Source: Planctomycetota bacterium (GTDB taxonomy: Bacteria; Planctomycetota; MHYJ01; JACQXL01; JACQZI01). From it: a stretch of 15,637 nucleotides of DNA. The DNA is taken from NCBI GenBank assembly GCA_016207825.1, contig JACQZI010000033.1, forward strand, positions 1 through 15,637. The letters run 5' to 3'. The position numbers were made by a program, and so were the translations under genes. Below the pieces are notes generated by a model. That model saw only the letters and a list, made by a program, of their open reading frames with translations, did no database searches and was not told where the DNA came from. Shown piece by piece: positions 1 through 15,195 of this stretch (positions are counted from its first letter, which is position 1; each line of letters begins with the position of its first letter).

Positions 1-3000
1 AGTCTCTGTCCCGTCAAAGTTATTCAATAGACCTCTTTCAAAGGTGCAGCCGACTATCCAGTTCTTGGTGAAATTCGTATCCTGGCCGATGGTATCGGCC
101 GTTGACACCGCCCCACCCGATGACACCTGGTATTGCTTTGACGCATATAATCTGGTCGAATCCGTTACCTGGCTGGATACGCCTGCTGTCGTAGTGGCAG
201 AACGCGTTCTTTCATTGGTCGTGCTTTCAGTTAACCCGTAATTAAAACTGTTGGTTAACTCTGTCTTTTCCCCTATCTTATTTACTGAGCTTAATCCCAG
301 TAAAGCCGAATTGCCGTTCGTGCCGCTAGTCCCCTGGATATTTCCGGATAAATTATCCATAATCTGGATGGTTGAGCCCAAGCTTGTCTGGTGATTGGCC
401 GGCCCCTTAAAGGTCGTCTGTTGGGACATATACATATTAACACGCTGGCTCAAGGCATAATTCGCCCTGACTGCGCCGACCGATGTATCGGAATTGGTTT
501 CGCTCGTAATCTTAGCGAGTTTATTCTCCACGCTCTGGTAACGGTATTCGCCGGAAAGAGTGAGCTTTTCCGTCATATTGTAATTTCCCTGGAGGCTCGT
601 AACTTCTGTCTTTTCCCCTCCGACTAACGCGCCTGAAACCAGGTTATAATTCTTAAGAAGCTCCTGGACATCATACCTAACGCTAAGATTAAGTTTATCG
701 GTCAATTTATCGCTAATGCTTGTCCCGTATTTGGCCGTGCCCTGCTGTATTACCGCGTTGGAGGACATAAATCCCGGCCGCAGGTGCTGGTAATAAACAT
801 CCGTGGTTATATTCTCTATCGGTTTTGAATCTGCCTTGATATAATACGCGCTTCCTTCTGAGGATGATAAATTAGTCACTTCATTAAAGGTCAATCCGCC
901 GTTAAGCGAAACATAATTCGGGATGCCGCGTGATTCGGACTGGGCATATTCCACCTTGACTTTAGTCTCAAGCGGCAGTTTTACCGTTAAATCCGCGCCG
1001 CCTAAGGTGTAATCCTTATCTAATTCCTCTTCGGATACATATCCGGTGCCGATTGTAACTTCGTCTATAGGCGAATAGGCCACCCTTCCTCCGTATACCC
1101 CTTCATTTAAATGGGTCCGGTCGGGCTCGTACTCGTAATCCACCACGATATACATCCCATTGCCGTTAAGGATATTGGTTGATATAATACTGCTTGTTGG
1201 GTCTACCGAATTAACAACCTGCTTAAAGATAATACGCCCCATGTCATAATCTATCTCGTAATCAACTCCCCTTGTTTTAATAATCGTCTCGACCGGTAAA
1301 TTGGTCAGCTGGTCGCGGGAGACAAGCTTTACCTCTTCGCTTCCCTCTATCACATTCTTGTGCTTCAAGTAATAGAACGAGCCGCCGGTAGCGCGGAATT
1401 CGTTATGCGCCGCCACCTGGTATGCCCTGGCTCCAAACAGTTTTACCTCGGTATTCGGGATAAACAGATAATCAGCTCTATTATTATTCGTGTTCAAAGC
1501 CACCTTAGCTCCGTAAAGAGTCCGGTTATAGGCAAAAAGCTCATTACTCGCTAAATCTGTTTGGTAATTCCCAACCAAAACTTGAGACGCGGATGGCGTA
1601 TGCCCGGCTGACAAATAGAATAGTCCCTGCGTATTGGTGGCATCCCATGCCACGGTTGAGTCATCTCCGTATAGCGGATAATACTTGTCCGGGTCTATGT
1701 AACGCGACATTGCCCGGTACCGGTCTCGCTTGCTGTCGAATGATGAAGTAATCGTATAATCTTTCTTGAATGTGCCTGACATATAATATGCCAATCTCCC
1801 GCGGGCGGTAAAGCCGTCGTCAAAACCTTCATTAACCTTGTTTGTATTTACGATATCCGTATTGCCTGAAGTGGTATTGTAGCCGGCAATGCCTTCGCCC
1901 AGGACTAATAAGTGTAATCCCTCTACGCTTTGCTTCGGGGACGTCGCTGCTGCTCCGGAGTCTGAAGAGTTTGTAGAGTTTATAGAGTTTTTGGAGTCTA
2001 TTGGGAAGTTTACCTTGCATAATAAGCCTTCGGTTACCCTCACTATTTTAGGACTTTCTTTCACTTGCAACTTGTCACCTGTAACTTGTAACTTTAAGGC
2101 ATGCGTTCCGGGAACGACTCCAGGCACGTGGTATTTGCCGTCTTTATCCGTGGTGATAACCGTTCCGTCTTCCATTATTATCTTGGCCTGGCCGACACCA
2201 ACTTCCCCTTCATCCTGGATGCCGTTGCCATTGGTATCTTCAAACACCTTGCCGATAATCGTGCCCAAATCGAATATCGGGTCGGGCACGACCAGGACTT
2301 CTTCCCTGGCGATGTTTGAAGTACCTTCGGTAACCGGGGGCTTGTTATACCAGAACCGGGCATAGGCGCGGTTTTCGTATTTGCCGAAGGCTACACCGCT
2401 TCCCACGACCAATTGATAAGACACTACCTTTGTGGTCGCCGTTGCGGTTGTCCCGAACCAGCCGGCATCATATGTTAGTGTATTGGTATCAACACCTGCT
2501 GGATCAGTCCGGGTAATATTACCAGCCCCGTCTATTAAAATGCTTGACCCCTTTACATACTTAAAACCGGGCGGAATGCGGTCTATCAGCTGGGTTGGGT
2601 TGTTGATATCAGTCGGATCAACTCCATTATTGGTTAAAGTTATCTTATATGTCACGACATCACCAACTGAAACCTTTTGCTTATTCGCTTTCTTGGTTAT
2701 CTGGATATCAGCCGGGTCTGTCCCGATAATGTAAAGAGTGTTATTCATGTTTCCGACAACCAATTGGCCGGTATTCATAATTGACACTGATGATATAAAT
2801 CCGTTTGCCCCGCCGCCGGCATATTCTTTCGGCCACCCGCTAAGCGCTGTTCCAGCGGTGCCGGTATCTGTTAAGGCGTAAATACGCGATACGAAACCGT
2901 CATTCAGAGTCCCGAAATAAATGCGTCCCTTGGAATCAACTGTCGGCGAGCTTTGTATGCCTATTCCGGCATTAAAAGTCCATTTTTCAGAACCATCACT

Positions 3001-6000
3001 TTTGTTTCTTGCGTATAAATTGCCGTTATTGCATCCGACGTATAGAGTGGTTCCGTCAAGAGAAAGAGCGGCGGAAGACCAGATAGAATTACCTGCGCCT
3101 AAATTAACGCTCCATCCGACTGCACCGGTATTTGCGTTTATCTGATGGAATCTACCGGATAGATCGCCAACATAAATATAACCATCACCGGCAACCAGAG
3201 GAGTAGCTTTGACCTGCGCTGTAATCTGCACCCCCGTATTCCACAGTGTGTTATAAGTCCCGGGCCACATAGCATAAGGAGTTGTATCCTGATAGCAATA
3301 CACCTTATTATCATTGCACCCGATATATATTTTTCCGTTTTTATCCAGCGCCGGGGATGATTCGAACGGACTGCCGCTGGGGTTAACCTGCCAAAGCAAC
3401 CGACCCGCTGTCATATCATCATAGAGGGCATACAAAGTTGAACCCGCCGCAAAATAAACCCTGGTATTACTGGCGTCGCCAGTAATGGCCGGCGATGAAA
3501 GAATCGCGCCCATAGCAGTACCATATGACCAACGCGGCGCTCCGCCCACAAGGGGATAAGAATGCATAACGCCGGAATCATCCCCAAAATAGACGGCTTG
3601 TTTGACAGCGGATATTGCCGGAGAGGATTTAACCATTCCTACCAATGTACTCCACTGATTACCGGCATCTTTATTAATACAATAAAAACTTGACCCTGCC
3701 GCAGAATTGCAACCAAAATATATATTCCCGTCTTTATCTACCGCGGCGGAACTTTGAATAGACCCACCTGCAGGATATGTATGCGCTTCAGTTGTGCTGG
3801 TCGGGCCGGCGAATGTGGATTGACCGGTCCGGCTGACATTGCTTCTGAACATTATCTGAGAATACACGGCATCCGGAGAGGTCGAGCCGCCGTTATTAAT
3901 GGCATAAAGACTGCCGTTGCTTCCTATATACAATGTCCCATCCGAACCAATTACCGGAATATTATATCCTGAACCGACTCCTACCGAATAAGTCCATTCA
4001 GGCGACACAGGAGCAACTCCGGTATCTTTTAGAGCGCAAACATAGTCGCCCATATCGTCATAAAAATATATTATAGGGTTAGGCAGGTTTTTCCCGATTG
4101 TGACTCCGTAATTAATTACTCCGGCAGCCGGCGGAGGGTCATACGACCAGCGCATAGCTAAAGATCCCGCGGTTGGGGTAACCGAGTAAAGAGAACCGTT
4201 ATTAACAGCAAAATAAGTAACTTCCCCCGAACCGATTGCCGGGGCAGTAGTGATAGTAAAACCCACATTATAAGGATTATACTTATTCAGGCCGTCGCTT
4301 AAATTAAGTGCGTATATTTGACTGCTCACCGCCACATAGACAACGCTATTAGCCTCGTCAATTGCCGGAGCATACTTTATCTGGAAGGCGCCGAAATTAC
4401 GGGACCATTTATTCCCGGAATTATCAGGGTTATGGGCAAACATATAGCCGTTTGTCGTTCCGCAATAAATAAACCCTTGGCTATCTATCGCCGGTGAGGC
4501 TTCAATAGAGCCCATGGCCGGGAAATAGTCCCATTTTGGAGAGCCATCAGGATTAACCGCATATAATTTGCCGTCGCCCGCCCCGAAATAAACCGTGCCG
4601 TCAGAGCCTATGGTCGGAGCTGAATATATAGAGCTGAATATTACTCCCGCACCGCTCGGATAATCCCATTTATACGCACCATCCGATGATCGCACTGCAT
4701 AGAGCTTACTCTTCATTAAACCATCCATCGTGTTAACGCATATATATATGGTGCCGTCAGACCCAAGAGCAGGTGAAGCATAAATATATCGATCGTTACT
4801 GCCAATGTATTGGGGAATATCATAAACCCACCTTTTGGCGCCGGTTGAATCATAAGACTCAAGCCTACTAGTGGTTCCGATATAAACATTTCCTTTGCTA
4901 TCCAAAACAGCCGCTGAAGTCATGCCACCCATGCCTAAAGCCGCCCATTTTAATCCGCCGGTTGTAGGTCCGGCATATTCCGCGCGGCTGGTATTTGCCA
5001 AATCACAATGCGCTTTAGGCCAGGCGGTATCTGCCAGGGTAGCATTATTCGGCATAAATTCGACCGTATTAGAAAACGTACTGTAATCAGGGCCCGGGTC
5101 AAGGCGGTATGCCCTTACTTTATAATAATAAGTAACCACATCCGTTATATCGGTATCCGTATAAGCGCTGGCAGGCGAAATAACGGCATCAAGGAAACTA
5201 AAAAAACCTTCACCCTCTTTTTTGCGGGCTATGATAAAACCGGTCTCGTCGCTTGAAGTATCTGTCCAGGAAATGGCGATTTCGTTGGTGGCAAGCACTA
5301 TTCCGGTCAATCCGCTCGGTGCGGATGGCCAGGTGGAATCCGATGCCTCATTAGAATAAGAGCTATAAGATGGGTAACTTCCCGCGGTATAATATGACCG
5401 GGCACGGTAAGTATAAGTAACCGAATTAGAAAGCCCTAAATCACCATACCAAACAGTCGGACTTCCTGTAGCCGTCCCTATTTCCGCATAACCGCCGCCA
5501 TTTTTTCGTTCCAATTTAAAGCCGGCCCAAGGCGCGGAATTATTCGTCCAGGAAATAGATATGGCATTTGCCGTATCTGTAACCATCGCCAATAGGTCTA
5601 ACGGATATCCTAATCCTACTACCTGGTCGCTATTTAAAGTGCCGCTATAACCAACGGCGTTACGTGCTTTTATATAATACCAAAAATTATTAGTGCCGGA
5701 AGTGGTTGTGATAGTGTTATCCGTATAAGTGATAACCGACCCTGTTCCGGCAACGGCGCTAACCGTTATGGTGGATCCGAATGCGGGAGACCGTTCAATG
5801 TAAAAATCCAGTTCGTCGTCAGAATTATCCGTCCAGCTAATTACAGCCTGGTAAGAAGAAAGAGCTATTGCATTAAAAGACGAAGGTGCCGCCGGATAAG
5901 TTTGGGCAATAATTTCATCTGAATAAGGGCTGTCCGCCGCAGGGGAGTTCCGATAAGCCCTGACACGATAAGTATATATATTGGAAGGGGTGACTGTGCT

Positions 6001-9000
6001 ATCGTCATACCAAGTATTCCATTGGCCGCTAGTCCCTATTTGGGTAAATGTTGTTTCTCCTTCAAACTTTCGTTCTATCTTAAAGCCATTATGATCACCA
6101 TTACTATACGACCAACTCAAAGAGACCTTGTCAGGAGACGTATAAACCGCCTTTGATAGGTTTGTAGGCGCAGGCGGTGGCGTTTTTTGATAGGACTCAT
6201 TGGAATAACTGCTATAATCACCGCCTCTGTAGGCTTGTATACGATACCAGTATTCGGTTGAAGCGCTGACCGTATCATCAGTAGCAGAAATCACATTACT
6301 ACCAGCCCCAGGCGGAAGATTACTAAAGCTTCCGAACTGTCCTACTTTACGCTCTATCCTGAACCCCGTTTCGTCAATGGAATTATCCTGCCAGTTTAAA
6401 TCAATCCTGGTTGGTGAAATAGAAGTTGCCACCATCAAAGAAGGCGCCGATGGATAAGTAATATCTGATGCAGTTCCAGACGTGCTTTCGCCGGCATAAT
6501 TAGTTGCCTTTATTTTATAGGTATACGTTGTAGACGGCGATATACCGATATCATAATAAGTTAATTGCGTTCCCGAACCCTGGTTCGCGCTGACCGTCAT
6601 AATGTGGGTAAAATCAAGGTCGCCCGTTTTTTGCCGCAATATTTTAAAACATAATTCCTCTATCGAAGCGTCCGTCCACCTGACCTGGACCTTACCGGAT
6701 TGGGCGGTTACGCTTAAGCCGGTAGGTGTAACAGGAACAGCGCCAAAGGTATCTAATGTCTGCTGATTAGTCTCTGAAGGAGTGCTATCACCCTGGCTAT
6801 TAAAGGCATATAACTTATAATAATACCTGGTTGATGGCTCCAAGCCAGTATCAGTATATTTTATAGTGCCTCCGTCAGATGGGTCTATCGTGGCAATAAC
6901 GGTATACGCTTGCTCAGGATGATACGCACGCTCCAGCCTAAATCCTTCCTCATCAGAAGAACTATCCCACCAAGAAAGAATAAACTGGGATGAATTCACC
7001 ATGTCAAAACTTATCCCTCCGGGCTGGCTTGGAGCACTGCCGGGCAGGTTTTGGGTTTGCGCTGAATTATAATTATAATCACTGTCACCGGCTGAATTAT
7101 ATGCACGCACCCTGTAGTGATATGTCGCATTAAAAGTTAAGCCGCTATCAAGATATTTATTGGTGCCTGTTGAAATATACCCAACAGCTGTATAAGGCCC
7201 GGCAATATTATCCGCCCGTTCTATCTTAAACCCATCTTCATTATCGGAGTTATCAACCCAAGTCAGTTTTATCTGCGAAGAAGAAGGCGCATACCCGGAC
7301 AAACCGCTGGGAGGAGTGGGTGTTGTAGCCGGTGCAGGGTATGTGGTGGCTGAAACCTCGGTTGAATTACCGGTCTCGCCCTGGAGATTATAAGCCCTTA
7401 TTACATAATAATAAGGCGTGTTTGCAAGCAACCCAACCGTATCGGAAAACGAGGTGACATTGGCATTAAGTGTGCCGGAAATAACTAATGTATATGGACC
7501 TCCTGATAACGTCCAGCGATATACCCTGAATTCTGTTTCATTCCATGAATTATCCTGCCAGGAAAGGTTAATGCGCTTGGCGCTTATGGCTACTGCTGAA
7601 ACATTGGTCGGGGTAAGAGGCTTAGTTGCCGGCGGAGGATTGGTCAGTGCGTCATCTTGGTTAGATTGACCGCTTTCTCCGGCGCTGTTATACGCAGTCG
7701 CGTAATACCAGTATTTGGTTGAATGGTCCAAGCCGGTATCCGAATAAGATTCCACGCCTATTCCAACAGTTTTAATATAGTTCCATGTTCCCGTCCCATC
7801 TTTCTGGCGGTATATATAAAACCCTTCTTCATCGCCTGAAGTGTCATTCCAGGTTATATTAACCTGGGAATCAGAAACGGCAACGGCGTTTAAGGTGTTC
7901 GGCGGGCTGGGCGGATTAGTCGGCTGCGCCGGAGTGGTCGCGGAAGCCACCCCTGCGAACATACTGCCTCCCTGGGAGTTATATGCCTCTATTTTATAAT
8001 AGAAAGTTGTGGAAGATGCCAAACCTGTATCTGAATAAACCTCTGTATTAGGGTCAATAGTGGCAATTTGGGTAAATGGATCTGTCCCGGTAGTATTACG
8101 GTAAAGCTTAAACCCCTCTTCATCGGAAGAATTATCATCCCAGTAAACGTCAATTGCCGAAGACGATACGGCGATAACCGTCAGGTTTGAAGGGGTTATC
8201 GGAGGATTAAGCGGTATTGCCGGAGTGGCTGCCGAAACCTCGGCTGAATTGCCGGTTCCCTGGAAGTTATATGACTGGACGACATAATAATATGTGGTGG
8301 AAGGGGTGACGGTAATATCGGAAAACGATTGGATACCCGGGTCAACCCGATACTGCACCGGATAAGGTCCTCCAAACACTTCACTGCGGTTAATATAAAA
8401 TCCGGCTTCATTATTCGAAGCATCTGTCCACGTTACATTAATAAGGGCATAAGAAGCGGCTGTGGCAGTGGTCCCGGTCGGGGCTGCCGGCGGCGAAGAA
8501 GGAGCCGATTTGGTAGTCGCGTTGGTTTCATTGCTACCTCCAATGCTTTCACCCCATACATTCCAGGCGTAAATTTTATAATAATAATTGGTGGAAGGAT
8601 CGACATCGCGGGGAGGATTAAGATCAATAAAGGAAGTAACCCCTGCTCCAACGGTCGCGTACCAGCCATAACTCCATGGACCATTAATACTCCGGTATAT
8701 CCTAAACTCTGTTTCGTCATTGGAGCTATCATTCCAGGATAAATTAACCTGGGAGTAAGAAGGCGCGCTGCATGTGGCATTTGAAGGATTGTTCGGCTTG
8801 CCGGGTGTTGTAACTGACTTATCATTCTGCGGTAAATAAGTTTCAAAACCGCCTCCGCGGGCAAGCACCCTATAATAAAATGTTCCCTTTTCCCAAACCG
8901 TATTGTCTGTGTAGTTTGTGGTATTGGCGGAAACATCGATAATATTAATCCAAGAACCATCAATTCCTGTCAGGGAACGCCTGATAGCATAACCTTCTTC

Positions 9001-9657
9001 GTTTGAACTATCGGTCCATGTAATATTAACCGAGGTGTTAGTCGTAGCGGTTACCGCCACATTGGTCGGAGGATTCGGGGCAGTAGGTCCTGCCGGAGAT
9101 GTGCCTCCGCTATCACTACCACCACCACCGCCGCCACCGCCGCCTGCAGCTGCACCAAGCACGCCGATCCCGCCCCAGAAATACCACTTGCTAAAGATAG
9201 AACCGCCTTTGGCCTGGGAAAGCAGGTTTTCAACCGGTCTTATATTGGGCTTAAAACCGGATGTGCCTTTTTCCATCCCCAGTTGCAGAAGCTCCCCAGT
9301 GGCGCTTTTCTGGTAACGGACGATTTTACAGCCGGCTGACTCCTGGCTTTTCATATATTCCTTAAAGCCGGGCTCGCTCAATCTTTCGCCGTTCTTGAAA
9401 TATTCAACCGGATTTGAAGGACCGGAAGGTTTCTTAAGAAGCGTATCTTCCTTACATTCCTTGAAGATACGGTAATAATAATCGCCGTAGTTTCCACCCT
9501 GGTCCCTAATCAGCGATTCCCGGATGCTTTTTTCTATCTCGTCTTTAGCCATCTCTGCCGGGTAGACTATTTCCACCAGGTCGGCGGCATACGATAACGA
9601 GCAAGTAACAAGGAACAATAAAAAAGCAGCCAGTAAATACTTTATTTCTGTTTTCAT
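1..9657 (-). CDS. Giant secreted FN3 / PQQ-propeller / DUF11 / SdrD-B / outer-membrane beta-barrel protein (3' end cut by window)
   Basis: One minus-strand frame is open from the ATG at 9657-9655 to base 1, giving at least 3219 residues; the C-terminus is outside the window. Residues 1-24 form a signal peptide (MKTEIKYLLAAFLLFLVTC, then SLSYA before AD). Residues 25-155 are unrecognised. Residues 157-180 are a short hydrophobic stretch ending in nine glycines. Residues ~189-1537 hold about 14 FN3-like domains, ~1543-2312 about 16 PQQ/WD40-like repeats, 2313-2459 a DUF11-type domain (DIQITKKANKQKVSVGDVV), and ~2464-2535 an SdrD-B/Cna-B-like domain with an acidic calcium-loop-like motif DTNGNGIQDEGE (2474-2485). 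From ~2590 on, alternating strands and the motifs YYPLYGDDST and GVDYEIDYDMGRIIF resemble large outer-membrane barrels. The start overlaps the upstream stop as ATGA with no Shine-Dalgarno, so translation is probably coupled. I infer an outer-membrane-anchored adhesin or scaffold; no catalytic domain is visible. Confidence 0.93.
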   Translation of the reverse strand, partial: MKTEIKYLLAAFLLFLVTCSLSYAADLVEIVYPAEMAKDEIEKSIRESLIRDQGGNYGDYYYRIFKECKEDTLLKKPSGPSNPVEYFKNGERLSEPGFKEYMKSQESAGCKIVRYQKSATGELLQLGMEKGTSGFKPNIRPVENLLSQAKGGSIFSKWYFWGGIGVLGAAAGGGGGGGGGSDSGGTSPAGPTAPNPPTNVAVTATTNTSVNITWTDSSNEEGYAIRRSLTGIDGSWINIIDVSANTTNYTDNTVWEKGTFYYRVLARGGGFETYLPQNDKSVTTPGKPNNPSNATCSAPSYSQVNLSWNDSSNDETEFRIYRSINGPWSYGWYATVGAGVTSFIDLNPPRDVDPSTNYYYKIYAWNVWGESIGGSNETNATTKSAPSSPPAAPTGTTATAASYALINVTWTDASNNEAGFYINRSEVFGGPYPVQYRVDPGIQSFSDITVTPSTTYYYVVQSYNFQGTGNSAEVSAATPAIPLNPPITPSNLTVIAVSSSAIDVYWDDNSSDEEGFKLYRNTTGTDPFTQIATIDPNTEVYSDTGLASSTTFYYKIEAYNSQGGSMFAGVASATTPAQPTNPPSPPNTLNAVAVSDSQVNITWNDTSGDEEGFYIYRQKDGTGTWNYIKTVGIGVESYSDTGLDHSTKYWYYATAYNSAGESGQSNQDDALTNPPPATKPLTPTNVSAVAISAKRINLSWQDNSWNETEFRVYRWTLSGGPYTLVISGTLNANVTSFSDTVGLLANTPYYYVIRAYNLQGETGNSTEVSATTYPAPATTPTPPSGLSGYAPSSSQIKLTWVDNSDNEDGFKIERADNIAGPYTAVGYISTGTNKYLDSGLTFNATYHYRVRAYNSAGDSDYNYNSAQTQNLPGSAPSQPGGISFDMVNSSQFILSWWDSSSDEEGFRLERAYHPEQAYTVIATIDPSDGGTIKYTDTGLEPSTRYYYKLYAFNSQGDSTPSETNQQTLDTFGAVPVTPTGLSVTAQSGKVQVRWTDASIEELCFKILRQKTGDLDFTHIMTVSANQGSGTQLTYYDIGISPSTTYTYKIKATNYAGESTSGTASDITYPSAPSLMVATSISPTRIDLNWQDNSIDETGFRIERKVGQFGSFSNLPPGAGSNVISATDDTVSASTEYWYRIQAYRGGDYSSYSNESYQKTPPPAPTNLSKAVYTSPDKVSLSWSYSNGDHNGFKIERKFEGETTFTQIGTSGQWNTWYDDSTVTPSNIYTYRVRAYRNSPAADSPYSDEIIAQTYPAAPSSFNAIALSSYQAVISWTDNSDDELDFYIERSPAFGSTITVSAVAGTGSVITYTDNTITTTSGTNNFWYYIKARNAVGYSGTLNSDQVVGLGYPLDLLAMVTDTANAISISWTNNSAPWAGFKLERKNGGGYAEIGTATGSPTVWYGDLGLSNSVTYTYRARSYYTAGSYPSYSSYSNEASDSTWPSAPSGLTGIVLATNEIAISWTDTSSDETGFIIARKKEGEGFFSFLDAVISPASAYTDTDITDVVTYYYKVRAYRLDPGPDYSTFSNTVEFMPNNATLADTAWPKAHCDLANTSRAEYAGPTTGGLKWAALGMGGMTSAAVLDSKGNVYIGTTSRLESYDSTGAKRWVYDIPQYIGSNDRYIYASPALGSDGTIYICVNTMDGLMKSKLYAVRSSDGAYKWDYPSGAGVIFSSIYSAPTIGSDGTVYFGAGDGKLYAVNPDGSPKWDYFPAMGSIEASPAIDSQGFIYCGTTNGYMFAHNPDNSGNKWSRNFGAFQIKYAPAIDEANSVVYVAVSSQIYALNLSDGLNKYNPYNVGFTITTAPAIGSGEVTYFAVNNGSLYSVTPTAGSLAMRWSYDPPPAAGVINYGVTIGKNLPNPIIYFYDDMGDYVCALKDTGVAPVSPEWTYSVGVGSGYNIPVIGSDGTLYIGSNGSLYAINNGGSTSPDAVYSQIMFRSNVSRTGQSTFAGPTSTTEAHTYPAGGSIQSSAAVDKDGNIYFGCNSAAGSSFYCINKDAGNQWSTLVGMVKSSPAISAVKQAVYFGDDSGVMHSYPLVGGAPRWSYGTAMGAILSSPAITGDASNTRVYFAAGSTLYALYDDMTAGRLLWQVNPSGSPFESSPALDKNGKIYIGCNDNKVYCYQDTTPYAMWPGTYNTLWNTGVQITAQVKATPLVAGDGYIYVGDLSGRFHQINANTGAVGWSVNLGAGNSIWSSAALSLDGTTLYVGCNNGNLYARNKSDGSEKWTFNAGIGIQSSPTVDSKGRIYFGTLNDGFVSRIYALTDTGTAGTALSGWPKEYAGGGANGFISSVSIMNTGQLVVGNMNNTLYIIGTDPADIQITKKANKQKVSVGDVVTYKITLTNNGVDPTDINNPTQLIDRIPPGFKYVKGSSILIDGAGNITRTDPAGVDTNTLTYDAGWFGTTATATTKVVSYQLVVGSGVAFGKYENRAYARFWYNKPPVTEGTSNIAREEVLVVPDPIFDLGTIIGKVFEDTNGNGIQDEGEVGVGQAKIIMEDGTVITTDKDGKYHVPGVVPGTHALKLQVTGDKLQVKESPKIVRVTEGLLCKVNFPIDSKNSINSTNSSDSGAAATSPKQSVEGLHLLVLGEGIAGYNTTSGNTDIVNTNKVNEGFDDGFTARGRLAYYMSGTFKKDYTITSSFDSKRDRYRAMSRYIDPDKYYPLYGDDSTVAWDATNTQGLFYLSAGHTPSASQVLVGNYQTDLASNELFAYNRTLYGAKVALNTNNNRADYLFIPNTEVKLFGARAYQVAAHNEFRATGGSFYYLKHKNVIEGSEEVKLVSRDQLTNLPVETIIKTRGVDYEIDYDMGRIIFKQVVNSVDPTSSIISTNILNGNGMYIVVDYEYEPDRTHLNEGVYGGRVAYSPIDEVTIGTGYVSEEELDKDYTLGGADLTVKLPLETKVKVEYAQSESRGIPNYVSLNGGLTFNEVTNLSSSEGSAYYIKADSKPIENITTDVYYQHLRPGFMSSNAVIQQGTAKYGTSISDKLTDKLNLSVRYDVQELLKNYNLVSGALVGGEKTEVTSLQGNYNMTEKLTLSGEYRYQSVENKLAKITSETNSDTSVGAVRANYALSQRVNMYMSQQTTFKGPANHQTSLGSTIQIMDNLSGNIQGTSGTNGNSALLGLSSVNKIGEKTELTNSFNYGLTESTTNERTRSATTTAGVSSQVTDSTRLYASKQYQVSSGGAVSTADTIGQDTNFTKNWIVGCTFERGLLNNFDGTET
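1954..1998 (-). repeat. Five tandem copies of a 9-nt repeat encoding an Asn/Ser-rich linker
   Basis: On the minus strand the units are GACTCCAAA, AACTCTATA, AACTCTACA, AACTCTTCA and GACTCCGGA. They encode a [DN]-S-x tripeptide repeat (DSKNSINSTNSSDSG) between the SdrD-B-like domain and the barrel-like region. The low-complexity, polar character fits a flexible linker. Confidence 0.85.
2060..2094 (-). repeat. Five tandem copies of a 7-nt repeat within the giant gene
   Basis: On the plus strand the units are ttcactt, gcaactt, gtcacct, gtaactt and gtaactt. Because seven is not a multiple of three, the reading frame rotates, giving a 21-nt / 7-residue super-period in the protein (KLQVTGD then KLQVKES). 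It lies at the C-terminal edge of the SdrD-B-like domain. Confidence 0.85.
2722..5031 (-). repeat. About 16 PQQ/WD40-like beta-propeller repeats, apparently two 8-blade modules
   Basis: The translation holds repeated blades of the form SSPAIGSDGTVYFGxGDGKLYAVNP followed by a KWxY-type strand, 35-55 residues each; I count about 16. A leader motif typical of the beginning of such propellers occurs twice: DLANTSRAEYAGPT near 4995-4950 and NVSRTGQSTFAGPT near 3840-3800. It therefore precedes blades 1 and 9, dividing the array into two sets of eight. No PQQ-dehydrogenase catalytic residues were identified, so a binding or structural role is more likely than an enzyme. Confidence 0.85.
5050..9093 (-). 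repeat. Array of about 14 fibronectin type III domains inside the giant protein
   Basis: The translation cycles with a period of about 96 residues (~289 bases). Each unit starts with a proline-rich linker such as PSAPSGL or PNPPTNV, then a strand ending in xITWTD, then a nearly invariant NSSDEEGFxIxR-type segment, an aromatic strand pair (YSDTGLxxSTxYYYKIxAYN) and an exit such as SNEVSATT. I count 14 units; edges are approximate. These are hallmarks of bacterial FN3 domains, which act as extended spacers or binding modules. Units differ clearly in DNA sequence, so the array is old rather than a recent expansion. Confidence 0.9.
9118..9144 (-). repeat. GGN-type trinucleotide repeat encoding nine consecutive glycines
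   Basis: Nine glycine codons in a row (residues 172-180) follow a short hydrophobic segment, KWYFWGGIGVLGAAA (residues 157-171), and precede the first FN3 domain. On the plus strand it reads as alternating acc and gcc triplets. It separates the unknown N-domain from the FN3 array and probably forms a flexible hinge or a membrane-proximal spacer. Confidence 0.85.
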
Positions 9658-10442
9658 TTTTTATCTTTAAAGTCAAGCGGAATCGGGTTATCCGTAATAA
9701 AAGAGGTTGCCCCGCTGTTCGAATACTCAACCGGTAATATCTGGGTTTGGTATCTCTCCTCGAATATCAGCATCTTCGCCACGCCGGGGAAAGGCAAACC
9801 GCTATCCGCAAACCAGATTTTCGTAAACTTGCTTACCGTCTCACCGGTAAGCGAGGCGGATTCCCTGATAAGGTAACGCTGGCAATCAAAGCTTCCAAGG
9901 CCTTTATTGTCGGCTTTTATGCTGATGTGTTCCGCTTCGCTTTTCTCGTTGGGTTTCTCAAACGGGATAATCAACATGCTGCCGAGCATCTCAGTGAAAA
10001 ACTGTTCGGGGGAGTTTATCCCGGCGCTCTTGGACCAGGCGGTCGGGTTAATTTCTACCGGAAACTCGTTCGGAAGCTTTACCACCAAAGTATCCATCAA
10101 AGCCTGCCCGTTAGAATCAACCCTAAAGCGGACGGATTTCATCTGCTCGGTCTTTTCATTAGCCACCAGTTCAACTTCATAATAAGGCGGTGATTTCTTC
10201 GTATTTTCACCTATGACGCTGATTCTTAGGTATGCGGTGTTTATCTCTTTAAACCCGGCGTTATCCATCTGGCTTCTCATGATGCGGTATTTTATCCACG
10301 AGCCTTTGGACGGCTGTGATGCGGATTGCCCCGAGCCTTCGGCTAAACCAAGCAACTCGCTGCCCTGGTAAAAAAGGAAGGTTAAAGCAATTCCTGTAAT
10401 AAGCAATAAAGCAAGGGTTACTTTCAGGTATCTTGTTTTCAT
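9654..10442 (-). CDS. Unrecognised exported or membrane-anchored protein, translationally coupled to the giant gene
   Basis: The product has 262 residues from the ATG at 10442. I chose this start because it directly precedes a signal-like N-terminus (MKTRYLKVTLALLLITGIAL, then TFLFYQ); an in-frame ATG at 10481 would add 13 residues ahead of the signal. Neither start has a convincing Shine-Dalgarno. After a Ser/Gln-rich linker (GSGQSASQPSKG) comes a mixed-strand body starting GSWIKYRIMRSQM and including YYEVELVANEK and SVRFRVDSNGQ. There is one cysteine (in SFDCQRYLI), and I found no catalytic motif. The strand pattern is loosely like LolA-type periplasmic folds, but I do not recognise the family. 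The stop TGA overlaps the ATG of the giant gene by 4 bases, so both proteins are probably made from one mRNA; a role in its export, folding or anchoring is inference. Confidence 0.85.
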   Translation of the reverse strand: MKTRYLKVTLALLLITGIALTFLFYQGSELLGLAEGSGQSASQPSKGSWIKYRIMRSQMDNAGFKEINTAYLRISVIGENTKKSPPYYEVELVANEKTEQMKSVRFRVDSNGQALMDTLVVKLPNEFPVEINPTAWSKSAGINSPEQFFTEMLGSMLIIPFEKPNEKSEAEHISIKADNKGLGSFDCQRYLIRESASLTGETVSKFTKIWFADSGLPFPGVAKMLIFEERYQTQILPVEYSNSGATSFITDNPIPLDFKDKK

Positions 10443-10686: not shown

Positions 10687-13600
10687 TTATTTATTGCCTA
10701 ACGCCGTAGCCAATCTCCTGTCGACATCCTTGGCGCAGCGGAAGCCTATATAATTAGAACAGAAATTACCGGTTACCCCGCCGCAGGTACCCTGCTGGCG
10801 ATAGGTATTCCTGAGAAACTTGGGGAATAATATCCACGAACCGCCCCTTAAGGTATGCCCTGAACCCTTCTTCCGGCTCATTTCTTTATTGTAATTATAC
10901 GAATCCTCATAAATATCTTCGCACCATTCAGCGACGTTTCCAATCATCTGGAAGCATCCATAAGGACTTTTGCCTGATTCATACTTATTGTCTGCAGATG
11001 GGACAGAGCCGCCGGAGCCGGTAAGGGCATTATTACAGGCATTTTCATCCCAGTTATTTCCCCATGGGTATATAAATTCTTTGGTCCCGCGGGCGGCTTT
11101 TTCCCATTCAGCTTCCGTCAACAAACGCTTGCCCGCCCACTTGGCGTATTCATTGGCATCCTTCCAGGAAACATGGACAACCGGATGATCCATCCTGTCC
11201 TTAATCCCCTTGCCGTCTCCTTCGGGGTCGCGCCAATTAGCACCCCGGACTTCCATGAGTTCGCAATCCTTCCAAACCCAGCTTTTCCCCGATATTTCCG
11301 CCTCTGTTTTATAGTTCTTGTTGGATTTAACAAAAATCTCGAACTGGGCATTGGTAATTTCGTATTTATCTATATAGAATTCCTTTACATCAATAGTGGA
11401 CTGCACCGGCTTTTCAAAGGGCTCCCCATCATCCGTTCCAATGCTAAACTGCCCGCCCGGCACGATAACCATTTCGGCATTATCATTATTTGATTTAATC
11501 AACCTGTAAACCCCGTCTGTTTTTCCGTTAATACTATCAGGGGTTATCCCGCAAAGCGCAAAAAAGTCCATCTCTATTTTGGTTTCCAGTTCGTCTAACG
11601 TTTTACCATTACCCGTTAACTTATCCGTATACTGCGCCTTTTCTTCTTCATCCAATTCAACCTTTGCCAGATTCCCTTTAAGGCTTATGATATGATTACG
11701 GGATTGTTTAAGCTCCCCTACCAAATCAATATATTCTTCCGGTGTTTTTACGTTGCCGACCGATTCATCCAGCTTGGCTACGGAATCCTGGTATGCCGTA
11801 TAATCCTCTTTAAATAATCCGCATTCAATATCCCTGATTTTGGCAACGACCTTGTCGCCAAGCACTTTCAGGTATTTGTCTTTATCACATTCGCTCTTGA
11901 ACTGTTTGGAAAACTCTAATTGCTCATTCAGTTTCTTTCCCTCCAAACCGGTTTCATAGCTTTTATAACGGTCTACCTGATAAGCCATTTGCAGGTCATC
12001 GAAAAGGGTGGCTGCCAATTCCGTTGCGGTCACGGCGTCAGGGTGTTCGTCTTTCAGTTCCTTCAAATCCGAAACCATCGTTTCTATCTTACCCAGGTAT
12101 CCGGAGGCCTTCTCACGAGCCATAACCTTCACCTTAAAATACATCGCCGAAGGCACCAGCTCATATTCCTCTGTTTTTATATTGATGAAATCAGAATCAA
12201 GCTTGGGATACAATTTATCATACTGGTTTTTTGAATCGAATTTCATGATATCATTGAAACTGTTTTGCAAATTGCTCAGCTTGGTCCCGGTAAAAACAAG
12301 CGGGGATTCTTCGAGCATTTTCGCAGCCACCAGCGACATTATTTTCTTGTTCCATCGTTCGGTTAAGGTATCCTGGAGTTTCTTGAGGTCGTTGTTCGAT
12401 TGGACCAAAGTGCTTTCGATTGTCCCGAATTCCTCCCATGCCGCATCAAGGTCTTTCAAAAGGAGCGCGTTGATTTTCGCCAGCCATTTTTTTATGAATG
12501 CGTCCTTAAGTCCCTGCAGCGGCGCGCTTTCCTTGCGCTCCAGCAAAGCGGAAGGCACCAGGTTATATTCCCTCCAGACAAAGTTCAGTTTATCACCCTT
12601 TTCTACCATGCCTTCTATTTTATCAGCCCATTTGGTAATCATGGAAGAACGGCGGTCGCTTACATCGTCATGCTCCTGGTATTTCGGGTCTATCTTGGTA
12701 AGGGCGGTCCAAGTCTCGGTAAATCTCGATTGCTTTATAAGGCCGTCAATCTGTACCAGGGCATTTTTGGTGGCGTCATTCAGGCTTGAGCCTGCCGCAG
12801 CACGGCCGTCTTTTCCCTGCGGCTTGAAAAGGACGCTGTATGCGAAAACACCTATGCCGATCATCAATACCGCCGCGATGCCGAATCCGATATAAAGCAT
12901 CCGGCTGCTCTTCTTCTGGCGCTTGGCAAAATCCGAAACCATGGTCGCATCCAGCGCAGAGGTGGAAGCATGTATCGGCGCCTGCTGCGCCCTAAAAGCC
13001 TCCAAATCCTCGATGAGTTGGGCAGGAGAAAGATAACGGGCGTTCGGGTCTTTCTGGATGCACTTCATGATGATGGCTTCCAGTTCCCTGGGGAAATCCT
13101 GGGCGAATTGAGAAACGTTCGCCGCCGTATCGTAAATATGATGCCGTATCATGCTCATGGCGCTGTCGCTTTCAAACGGGATGCGGCCGGTCGCCATTTC
13201 GTACATGACGATACCGAGTGAATAAATATCCGAACGGATATCCGCCGCGCTGCCCATGCCCTGTTCGGGTGAAATATATTTGGGCGTTCCGATGACCGTT
13301 CCGGCCATGGTCGCTTCCCCATCGACATTTTCGTTTAATTTAGCCAGGCCGAAATCCATGACCTTGACTTTCGTTTCCATGATATTGACATCCATGACGG
13401 CCATGCTTTCGGAAACACTTCCCCCCGGCTGGCTGTCGGTCGGCGGCTTCATCATGGAACTCGAATAGGAAACCATGATATTGGCGGGCTTGATATCGCG
13501 GTGGACGATCTTGGCGGGCGATTCCCAGGCGGCCCTCAAGGCACGCGCCACCGAATCCGCCACGTAAACGATTTCATTTACCGCAAACTTGCGGCCGCGC

Positions 13601-13944
13601 TCGACGAACTTGGAAAGGGGCTGTCCCTGGACAAACTCCATGATGAAGAAATACTCGCCGTCTTTTTCACCGACTGAGTAAACCTGGATGATATGCTCAT
13701 CCGTCATCGTGGCGAGTGTTGTCGCCTCGCGCTTGAAACGCTTGACGAATTCCGGGTCGGCGGAGAGTTCCTTTTTGAGGATTTTTATGGCGACTTCGCG
13801 GTTAAGGGATTTCTGTTTTCCGCGATAGACTTCACCCCAGGCGCCTTTGCCGAGCAGACGCTTGGTGCTGTATTCAAATTCGCCTATGGTCTTAATTTCA
13901 GCAGTTTGGGCAGGTTGTCCTGCCTGTTCTGTGGGGTCTGGCAT
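10687..13944 (-). CDS. Transmembrane Hanks-type Ser/Thr protein kinase with helical stalk and FGE-sulfatase-like C-terminal domain
   Basis: 1085 residues. The kinase domain (~25-320) has the glycine loop GKGAWG (32-37), Lys54 in VAIK, HRD at 148-150 with Lys152 and Asn155, DFG at 197-199 and SPE at 225-227, so it should be active. A Ser/Met-rich insertion (~158-191) separates the catalytic loop from DFG. One membrane segment (~349-372) follows a basic stretch (KRQKKSSR). A helix-rich stalk (~380-820) contains repeated KWxxKI and EYxLVPSA motifs. The C-terminal ~260 residues (MVIVPGGQFSIGT, FYIDKYEITNAQF, HPVVHVSWKDANEYAKW, GNVAEWCED, RGGSW, IGFRC) match the FGE-sulfatase/SUMF1 fold. However, the segment after RGGSW reads ILFPKFLRNTYRQ and lacks the paired active-site cysteines, so this is probably a binding or sensing domain rather than an enzyme. 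A kinase with this tail is common in Planctomycetota-like genomes. The start lies just below a perfect promoter. Confidence 0.95.
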   Translation of the reverse strand: MPDPTEQAGQPAQTAEIKTIGEFEYSTKRLLGKGAWGEVYRGKQKSLNREVAIKILKKELSADPEFVKRFKREATTLATMTDEHIIQVYSVGEKDGEYFFIMEFVQGQPLSKFVERGRKFAVNEIVYVADSVARALRAAWESPAKIVHRDIKPANIMVSYSSSMMKPPTDSQPGGSVSESMAVMDVNIMETKVKVMDFGLAKLNENVDGEATMAGTVIGTPKYISPEQGMGSAADIRSDIYSLGIVMYEMATGRIPFESDSAMSMIRHHIYDTAANVSQFAQDFPRELEAIIMKCIQKDPNARYLSPAQLIEDLEAFRAQQAPIHASTSALDATMVSDFAKRQKKSSRMLYIGFGIAAVLMIGIGVFAYSVLFKPQGKDGRAAAGSSLNDATKNALVQIDGLIKQSRFTETWTALTKIDPKYQEHDDVSDRRSSMITKWADKIEGMVEKGDKLNFVWREYNLVPSALLERKESAPLQGLKDAFIKKWLAKINALLLKDLDAAWEEFGTIESTLVQSNNDLKKLQDTLTERWNKKIMSLVAAKMLEESPLVFTGTKLSNLQNSFNDIMKFDSKNQYDKLYPKLDSDFINIKTEEYELVPSAMYFKVKVMAREKASGYLGKIETMVSDLKELKDEHPDAVTATELAATLFDDLQMAYQVDRYKSYETGLEGKKLNEQLEFSKQFKSECDKDKYLKVLGDKVVAKIRDIECGLFKEDYTAYQDSVAKLDESVGNVKTPEEYIDLVGELKQSRNHIISLKGNLAKVELDEEEKAQYTDKLTGNGKTLDELETKIEMDFFALCGITPDSINGKTDGVYRLIKSNNDNAEMVIVPGGQFSIGTDDGEPFEKPVQSTIDVKEFYIDKYEITNAQFEIFVKSNKNYKTEAEISGKSWVWKDCELMEVRGANWRDPEGDGKGIKDRMDHPVVHVSWKDANEYAKWAGKRLLTEAEWEKAARGTKEFIYPWGNNWDENACNNALTGSGGSVPSADNKYESGKSPYGCFQMIGNVAEWCEDIYEDSYNYNKEMSRKKGSGHTLRGGSWILFPKFLRNTYRQQGTCGGVTGNFCSNYIGFRCAKDVDRRLATALGNK

Positions 13945-13953
13945 AAGGGGCTG

Positions 13954-13982
13954 ATTATAATAAAAACCTATGTTTTTGTCAA
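13954..13982 (-). promoter_or_regulatory. Perfect-consensus sigma70-type promoter for the kinase gene, giving a near-leaderless mRNA
   Basis: On the minus strand TTGACA (13982-13977) and TATAAT (13959-13954) are both exact consensus hexamers with the ideal 17-base spacer. Transcription would begin around 13947, three bases or so before the ATG at 13944. No Shine-Dalgarno sequence exists upstream of that ATG (the leader reads CAGCCCCTT), which fits leaderless initiation. Confidence 0.85.
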
Positions 13983-14224: not shown

Positions 14225-14878
14225 CTAATATAATAAAAACGGGGAGTGAATCTGGCCAGCAGGACATCCCGCGAGGGACCAGACCCACTCCCCATAAGCA
14301 AAAAGACACCAAGAATACATTAGGAAATGACAACCGTTTGTGCATGGGCAATCTTCCGGGTCGTCCGGCGGCACAGTGCCGGATGCCACCATAATAAACC
14401 GATATTCAACGACGTTTGCATCCGGGTGCATGCTGGCGCGGGTCTGGTCTGTGGTCACCCGGCAACGCACTTCAATATCGCCGCCGCCTAAGCCTTTCAA
14501 TCCGATAATCGGCACAGTCGTAATCGGCGCACCGGGCGAGGGCTCGGTATCGCGAACCGTCAAACCTAAATTTACCCGGTCCGTATCGGAGACCAGCGGG
14601 CTATTCATCAGATACTGCCTTGCCATGGTGCGGATTTCTTTTTCATAAAGCTCGCGCGACTGGCGGTGCGCCAGGACATCAGCCCTGGTCCGGGTGGTTT
14701 TATTTTGCGCGGCGGTGTATAATGGTTCGTATGACATGCGTCGGGCACCAATAGCCATAACATCAGCCGGCGGAATGCCCCAGGTGACGGCGTTCGCCAC
14801 CACCCGATTCACAAAATTCCCCTGGAAATTGAAAAAGTCATCGTCCTGTTTGGGGATGTAGTATTTTTTTATTGGCAT
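14225..14878 (-). CDS. MPIKKYYIP-type hypothetical protein with probably altered C-terminus
   Basis: 217 residues. The start at 14878 is fixed by AAGGAG six bases upstream and by the N-terminus MPIKKYYIPK, which I recall from a family of unknown function in Planctomycetota and other environmental genomes. The N-terminal half is helical (DDFFNFQGNFVNRVVANAV, WGIPPADV, RTRADVLAHRQSRELYEKEI). It is followed by a strand-rich stretch (ITTVPIIGLKGLGG, DIEVRCRVTTDQTR, VVEYRFIMVASG). Family members as I remember them continue with a beta-rich end containing GK and RW(x)N motifs. Here the tail after DDPEDCPC is unrelated, Cys- and aromatic-rich (HFLMYSWCLFAYGEWVW), and is encoded across a terminator hairpin. 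I infer 3' truncation or replacement. An extended start at 14977 would run through the upstream hairpins and lacks an RBS. Confidence 0.75.
   Translation of the reverse strand: MPIKKYYIPKQDDDFFNFQGNFVNRVVANAVTWGIPPADVMAIGARRMSYEPLYTAAQNKTTRTRADVLAHRQSRELYEKEIRTMARQYLMNSPLVSDTDRVNLGLTVRDTEPSPGAPITTVPIIGLKGLGGGDIEVRCRVTTDQTRASMHPDANVVEYRFIMVASGTVPPDDPEDCPCTNGCHFLMYSWCLFAYGEWVWSLAGCPAGQIHSPFLLY
14234..14293 (-). terminator. Intrinsic terminator overlapping the end of the MPIKKYYIP-type ORF
   Basis: The plus-strand arms ggggagtg (14241-14248) and cactcccc (14286-14293) pair. After a 2-nt mismatch, tctgg (14251-14255) pairs with ccaga (14279-14283), and inside lies tccc-gcga-ggga (14267-14278). 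Read on the minus strand the hairpin is followed at once by GTTTTTATTATATT, a U-rich release tract. Residues ~196-213 of the ORF are encoded by this hairpin and the stop codon lies at the end of the U-tract. Confidence 0.75.
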
Positions 14879-14884
14879 TTTTAT

Positions 14885-14890
14885 CTCCTT
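14885..14890 (-). promoter_or_regulatory. Shine-Dalgarno AAGGAG deciding the MPIKKYYIP-type start
   Basis: AAGGAG on the minus strand lies six bases (ATAAAA) before the ATG at 14878. It settles the start against the upstream in-frame ATG at 14977. The sequence just 5' of it (14893 onward) is the foot of a large hairpin. Confidence 0.85.
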
Positions 14891-14974: not shown

Positions 14975-14980
14975 CACGGT

Positions 14981-15190
14981 TTATATCGTTGTTGCTACGT
15001 CTTATATCCCAGTTGCTACAATTTATATCGCCTTTGCTATGAATCATATCCCCGTTGCTACGACTTGTATCCCTATTGCTACAAGCCATATTCCCATTGC
15101 TACGAGTTGTATCCCCGTTGCTACGGGTTATATTCCAGGGAATAAAGGTTATATTCCACGGAATACGGGTTATATTCCCTTAACTACGGG
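14981..15190. repeat. Ten exact-length tandem copies of a diverged 21-nt repeat
   Basis: Ten units of exactly 21 bases run without any indel, with consensus near TTATATCCCCGTTGCTACGGG. Units 1-7 share the TTGCTA core. Units 8 and 9 replace it with palindromic ATTCCAGGGAAT and ATTCCACGGAAT, and unit 10 ends in taacta-cggg-tagtta together with the following bases. Many units contain a small imperfect palindrome (CCCGT-TGCT-ACGGG). Because 21 is divisible by three, heptapeptide-like frames stay open on both strands, but neither has a supported start, so I treat the array as non-coding. Confidence 0.9.
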
Positions 15191-15195
15191 TAGTT

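Follow-up and report, generated by a model that had tools for sequence, protein, structure and literature searches.

TA-led (leaderless) genes have been described in Actinobacteria, Deinococcus-Thermus and other groups (Zheng et al, 2011; PMC3160421). These genes lack a Shine-Dalgarno (SD) sequence, occur mixed with SD-led genes in one genome and have a -10-like signal some 10 bp ahead of the start codon; in medium-GC genomes this signal reads TAtaaT (PMC3160421). The main text of that survey does not name Planctomycetes. In Mycobacterium, a large class of transcripts lacking a 5' leader is reported to have been mapped experimentally (PMC4633059, PMC3898074). A survey of non-SD genes that included one planctomycete found a nucleotide bias that it ascribed to leaderless mRNA and/or S1 protein (PMC5397173). 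A search covering part of the literature found no mapped transcript starts in Planctomycetes.

The planctomycete locus analyzed here resembles the TA-led genes in the position of its -10 signal, in lacking an SD and in lying among SD-led genes, but differs from those in the TA-led survey in that both its -35 and its -10 element are near full consensus. Unlike the transcripts reported as experimentally mapped in Mycobacterium, its leaderless transcripts are predicted from sequence. The earlier planctomycete data (PMC5397173) concern a single species and an aggregate bias that does not separate leaderless mRNA from S1, whereas here we assign individual promoters with positions.

The kinase promoter and start codon

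The window, meaning the whole 15,637-nucleotide stretch under analysis, corresponds to contig 33 of a genome of 2.89 Mb in 42 contigs. On its minus strand lies a Ser/Thr protein kinase gene (10687..13944) with a predicted leaderless transcript, identified by Pfam matches and a unique start codon. The 1085-amino acid product contains a kinase domain (PF00069, residues 25-305) and a C-terminal FGE-sulfatase domain (PF03781, residues 822-1072). Its nearest named relatives belong to Planctomycetota, and one carries the label Candidatus Brocadiia.

The kinase promoter (13982-13954, minus strand) reads TTGACA AAAACATAGGTTTTTAT TATAAT, with exact matches at the -35 hexamer (13977..13982) and the -10 hexamer (13954..13959). 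It matches at 12 of 12 positions, with a 17-base spacer within the 16-18 bases of sigma70-type promoters, and its hexamers and spacer are the same as those of the E. coli sigma70 consensus promoter. The exact TTGACA-N17-TATAAT pattern occurs only here within the window. Nine bases, CAGCCCCTT (13953-13945), separate the -10 box from the ATG at 13944-13942, a gap that falls in the range of about 6-11 bases typical of TA-led genes. We found no SD-like word in the 20 bases upstream of this ATG. An earlier note on this DNA had described a mismatch-free promoter nine bases before an ATG without an SD, and both parts of that description were borne out.

ATG 13944 is the sole ATG, GTG or TTG codon ahead of the kinase domain. 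No such codon lies in frame between the upstream stop and this ATG, and the next one downstream, codon 80, already falls inside the domain, so the start is about as certain as sequence permits. This also excludes, for ATG, GTG and TTG starts, the downstream start with its own ribosome-binding site that the note had named as a case against its reading. The N-terminal peptide expected from ATG 13944 is PDPTEQAGQPAQ, and the protein would begin with MPDPTEQ or PDPTEQ.

Positions 13950-13945 are pyrimidines throughout, and the A of the ATG is therefore the first purine at the usual distance from the -10 box or beyond. Judged by that distance, the predicted transcription start zone (13944..13947, minus strand) extends from the A of the ATG to 3 nt before it. 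The 9-base gap is at the long end for a start exactly at the A, making a leader of 1-3 nt possible, and a second start site further upstream may also exist. We considered base composition as the feature that fixes the start site and rejected it, since a pyrimidine at -1 is about equally common in SD genes. Genes with leaders showed no clear initiator peak downstream of the -10 box.

In the mechanism we propose, a housekeeping sigma70-type promoter with perfect hexamers would direct transcription from the A of the ATG or from a base no more than about 3 nt before it, giving a kinase mRNA with essentially no 5' leader. Ribosomes, as 70S particles or as 30S subunits with initiator tRNA, would then recognize the 5'-terminal AUG directly rather than through SD pairing, and this mode would be common in the genome beside normal SD-led initiation. 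We infer all three central elements, namely the exact transcription start, the activity of the promoter in vivo and leaderless translation, from the sequence.

The neighboring gene (14225..14878, minus strand) encodes a 217-amino acid protein of a family without a Pfam match, and its start looks quite different. Its Shine-Dalgarno sequence AAGGAG (14885..14890, minus strand) places AGGAG 6 bases before the ATG (AAAAGGAGATAAAAATG), confirming the strong SD noted earlier for this gene. That it is a real gene is indicated by homologs from the same genus and order, whose alignments begin near residue 1. The family has several copies in this genome and is found in same-genus and same-order genomes, with no match in the 11 class genomes searched outside the order. 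Upstream of the gene, at 14976-15191, lies a degenerate 21-base tandem repeat array (GTTGCTACGAGTTATATCCCC, with later units TATATTCCACGGAATA). Elsewhere in the window, the gene that follows the kinase downstream (at 10442, minus strand) carries TATAAA some 6 bases ahead of its ATG, lacks an SD and has a weak promoter score; it is perhaps also leaderless. An open frame of at least 3219 codons (1-9657, minus strand) runs off the contig end and contains many repeated segments that resemble, by eye, fibronectin type III and PQQ-like repeats. No Rfam elements were found in the window.

Promoter positions across the genome

The genome contains 64 exact matches to TTGACA-N15..19-TATAAT, versus 2 to the reversed pattern. 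In a 1.21-Mb sample, exact pairs have a spacer of 16 bases in 18 cases, 17 in 10 and 18 in one. These counts, together with the clustering at spacers 16 and 17, show that the promoter type is real and widely used. A learned two-box weight matrix found promoters at 185 genes, versus 13-31 in shuffles, and the motif is over-represented before genes of this genome, as is characteristic of sigma70-type promoters.

The note had proposed scanning other genes for the same arrangement, and we did so on the 1.21-Mb sample, which represents 42% of the 2.89-Mb genome and in which 821 genes were called. Gene starts came from our own codon-usage script, which uses neither promoter nor SD input, and the two-box matrix was learned from upstream regions while ignoring position; we termed promoters scoring 10 or more strong. 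Of the 580 genes whose upstream space is free, 192 have a strong sigma70-type promoter. Distances from the -10 box to the start codon (d) show a spike at 6-11 bases that contains 65 of these 192 genes, versus 5 genes at 0-5 and 13 at 12-17. Individual counts at d=6 to d=11 are 6, 17, 11, 16, 12 and 3, while each distance from 0 to 5 has 0-2 genes and each from 12 to 20 has 1-4. Shuffled upstream sequences at the same threshold put 0-2 genes in the 6-11 window. The kinase promoter (d=9) shares the top score of the sample, 18.0. Looser thresholds give an excess of about 75-110 of the 580 genes (13-19%).

None of the 65 genes in the 6-11 class has an SD 5-mer and two have an SD 4-mer, whereas an SD 5-mer is present in 47 of 102 genes whose strong promoter lies 20-150 bases upstream (Fisher p=6e-13 for 0/65 versus 47/102; the background rate of the 5-mer is 6%). 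ATG is the start codon in 63 of the 65. The distance spike and the SD counts define two populations, leaderless and SD-led, and the anti-SD sequence expected at the 3' end of 16S rRNA is intact (GGATCACCTCCTTT). The genome thus very probably uses both initiation modes, as the note had suggested, and this kinase is probably leaderless, a prediction that gains support from the genome-wide spike and the absence of SD in the class. Taken as a whole, the reading that the perfect promoter yields a kinase mRNA with a leader of 0 to about 3 nt, started directly at its AUG in a mode common to the genome, is highly likely. Both an SD 4-mer and a strong promoter are missing from about 150 of the sampled genes that have free upstream space.

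The kinase mRNA might instead come mainly from a promoter further upstream, such as a weak 9/12 site at 14025-13998, with the perfect promoter minor and initiation occurring on an SD-less, AU-rich, unstructured leader with the help of ribosomal protein S1. The upstream region is AT-rich and holds further TATAAT-like words, and many genes have neither an SD nor a strong promoter (of 300 genes that have free upstream space but lack a strong promoter, only 86 carry an SD 5-mer). This account would have to treat as minor a promoter unsurpassed in the sample, at a distance where the spike indicates that the genome places promoters systematically, and we consider it unlikely.

Kinase relatives and other genomes

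The preferred reading, a leaderless kinase mRNA, can be compared with the start regions of related kinases. Within the same genome, three paralogous kinases with the same layout have promoters at similar distances: C8:253014 (a perfect promoter, d=7), C8:257325 (d=7) and one on C4 (d=8). Another paralog, on C29, combines an SD-like AAGGA with a perfect promoter at a distance of 29 bases, and one on C10 has an SD-like AAAGGAG. A same-genus homolog (L133) has TTGCAT-N17-TATAAT 6 bases ahead of its ATG. Three homologs (L122, L124 and L127), which belong to other families of this order, lack the promoter, and none of the checkable orthologs of other leaderless genes in a same-order genome (G003) was leaderless. 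An individual gene's start mode therefore appears to turn over, and the predicted leaderless trait shows no gene-by-gene conservation.

These homologs also bear on whether the kinase protein starts elsewhere, either at a rare codon before this ATG or at some later codon. The frame is open for 31 codons upstream of ATG 13944, but those codons include no ATG, GTG or TTG, a downstream start would fall at codon 80 within the kinase domain, and several homologs likewise begin shortly ahead of the domain; a different start is thus very improbable. That the consensus promoter adjoins the start codon by chance and means nothing for initiation is hardly credible: most kinase homologs of other families lack the promoter, but chance would leave unexplained the genome-wide spike, the lack of SD 5-mers in the class and the excess of exact promoters over the reversed control (64 versus 2).

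Applied to the same-order genome G003, the same pipeline found 51 strong promoters; 15 of them lie 6-11 bases before the start codon, and the ranges 0-5 and 12-17 are empty. In contrast to the 192 of 580 genes found in the planctomycete, a 200-kb E. coli control run through this pipeline gave a strong score for 3 of 100 genes, none of the three at leaderless distance. The same matrix found few promoters in sampled stretches of high-GC relatives in the class.

Our comparison across the phylum rests mainly on pattern counts, in which TTGACN-N16..17-TANAAT is followed by ATG after 6-10 bases (leaderless) or, as a displaced control, after 14-18. The genome itself has 46 leaderless versus 18 displaced matches. 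Summed over the order (eight genomes besides this one) the counts are 183 versus 66, and over the class (fourteen genomes) they are 80 versus 23. One same-order genome (G002) shows no enrichment, with 26 versus 23. Elsewhere in the phylum, two genomes lean toward the leaderless distance (21 versus 5 in G060 and 16 versus 3 in G100), and G033, G108 and G074 have no such lean. We consider it likely that leaderless initiation is a major, lineage-wide mode in this order of Planctomycetota and, to a lesser degree, in its class, previously unmapped, with unusually consensus-like promoters at the start codon and fast per-gene turnover between families.

Implications for Planctomycetota

As a class, leaderless genes are already known from bacteria, and what is new here is the lineage and the scale; the case is well supported and useful, and not mechanistically novel. 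Planctomycetota have hardly been sampled in the initiation surveys we examined, and gene callers that rely on SD sequences may misplace starts in such genomes. In this lineage, predicted leaderless and SD-led paralogs of one kinase family coexist within a medium-GC, near-consensus promoter system, and with the two kinds of paralog side by side, the effect of start mode is testable.
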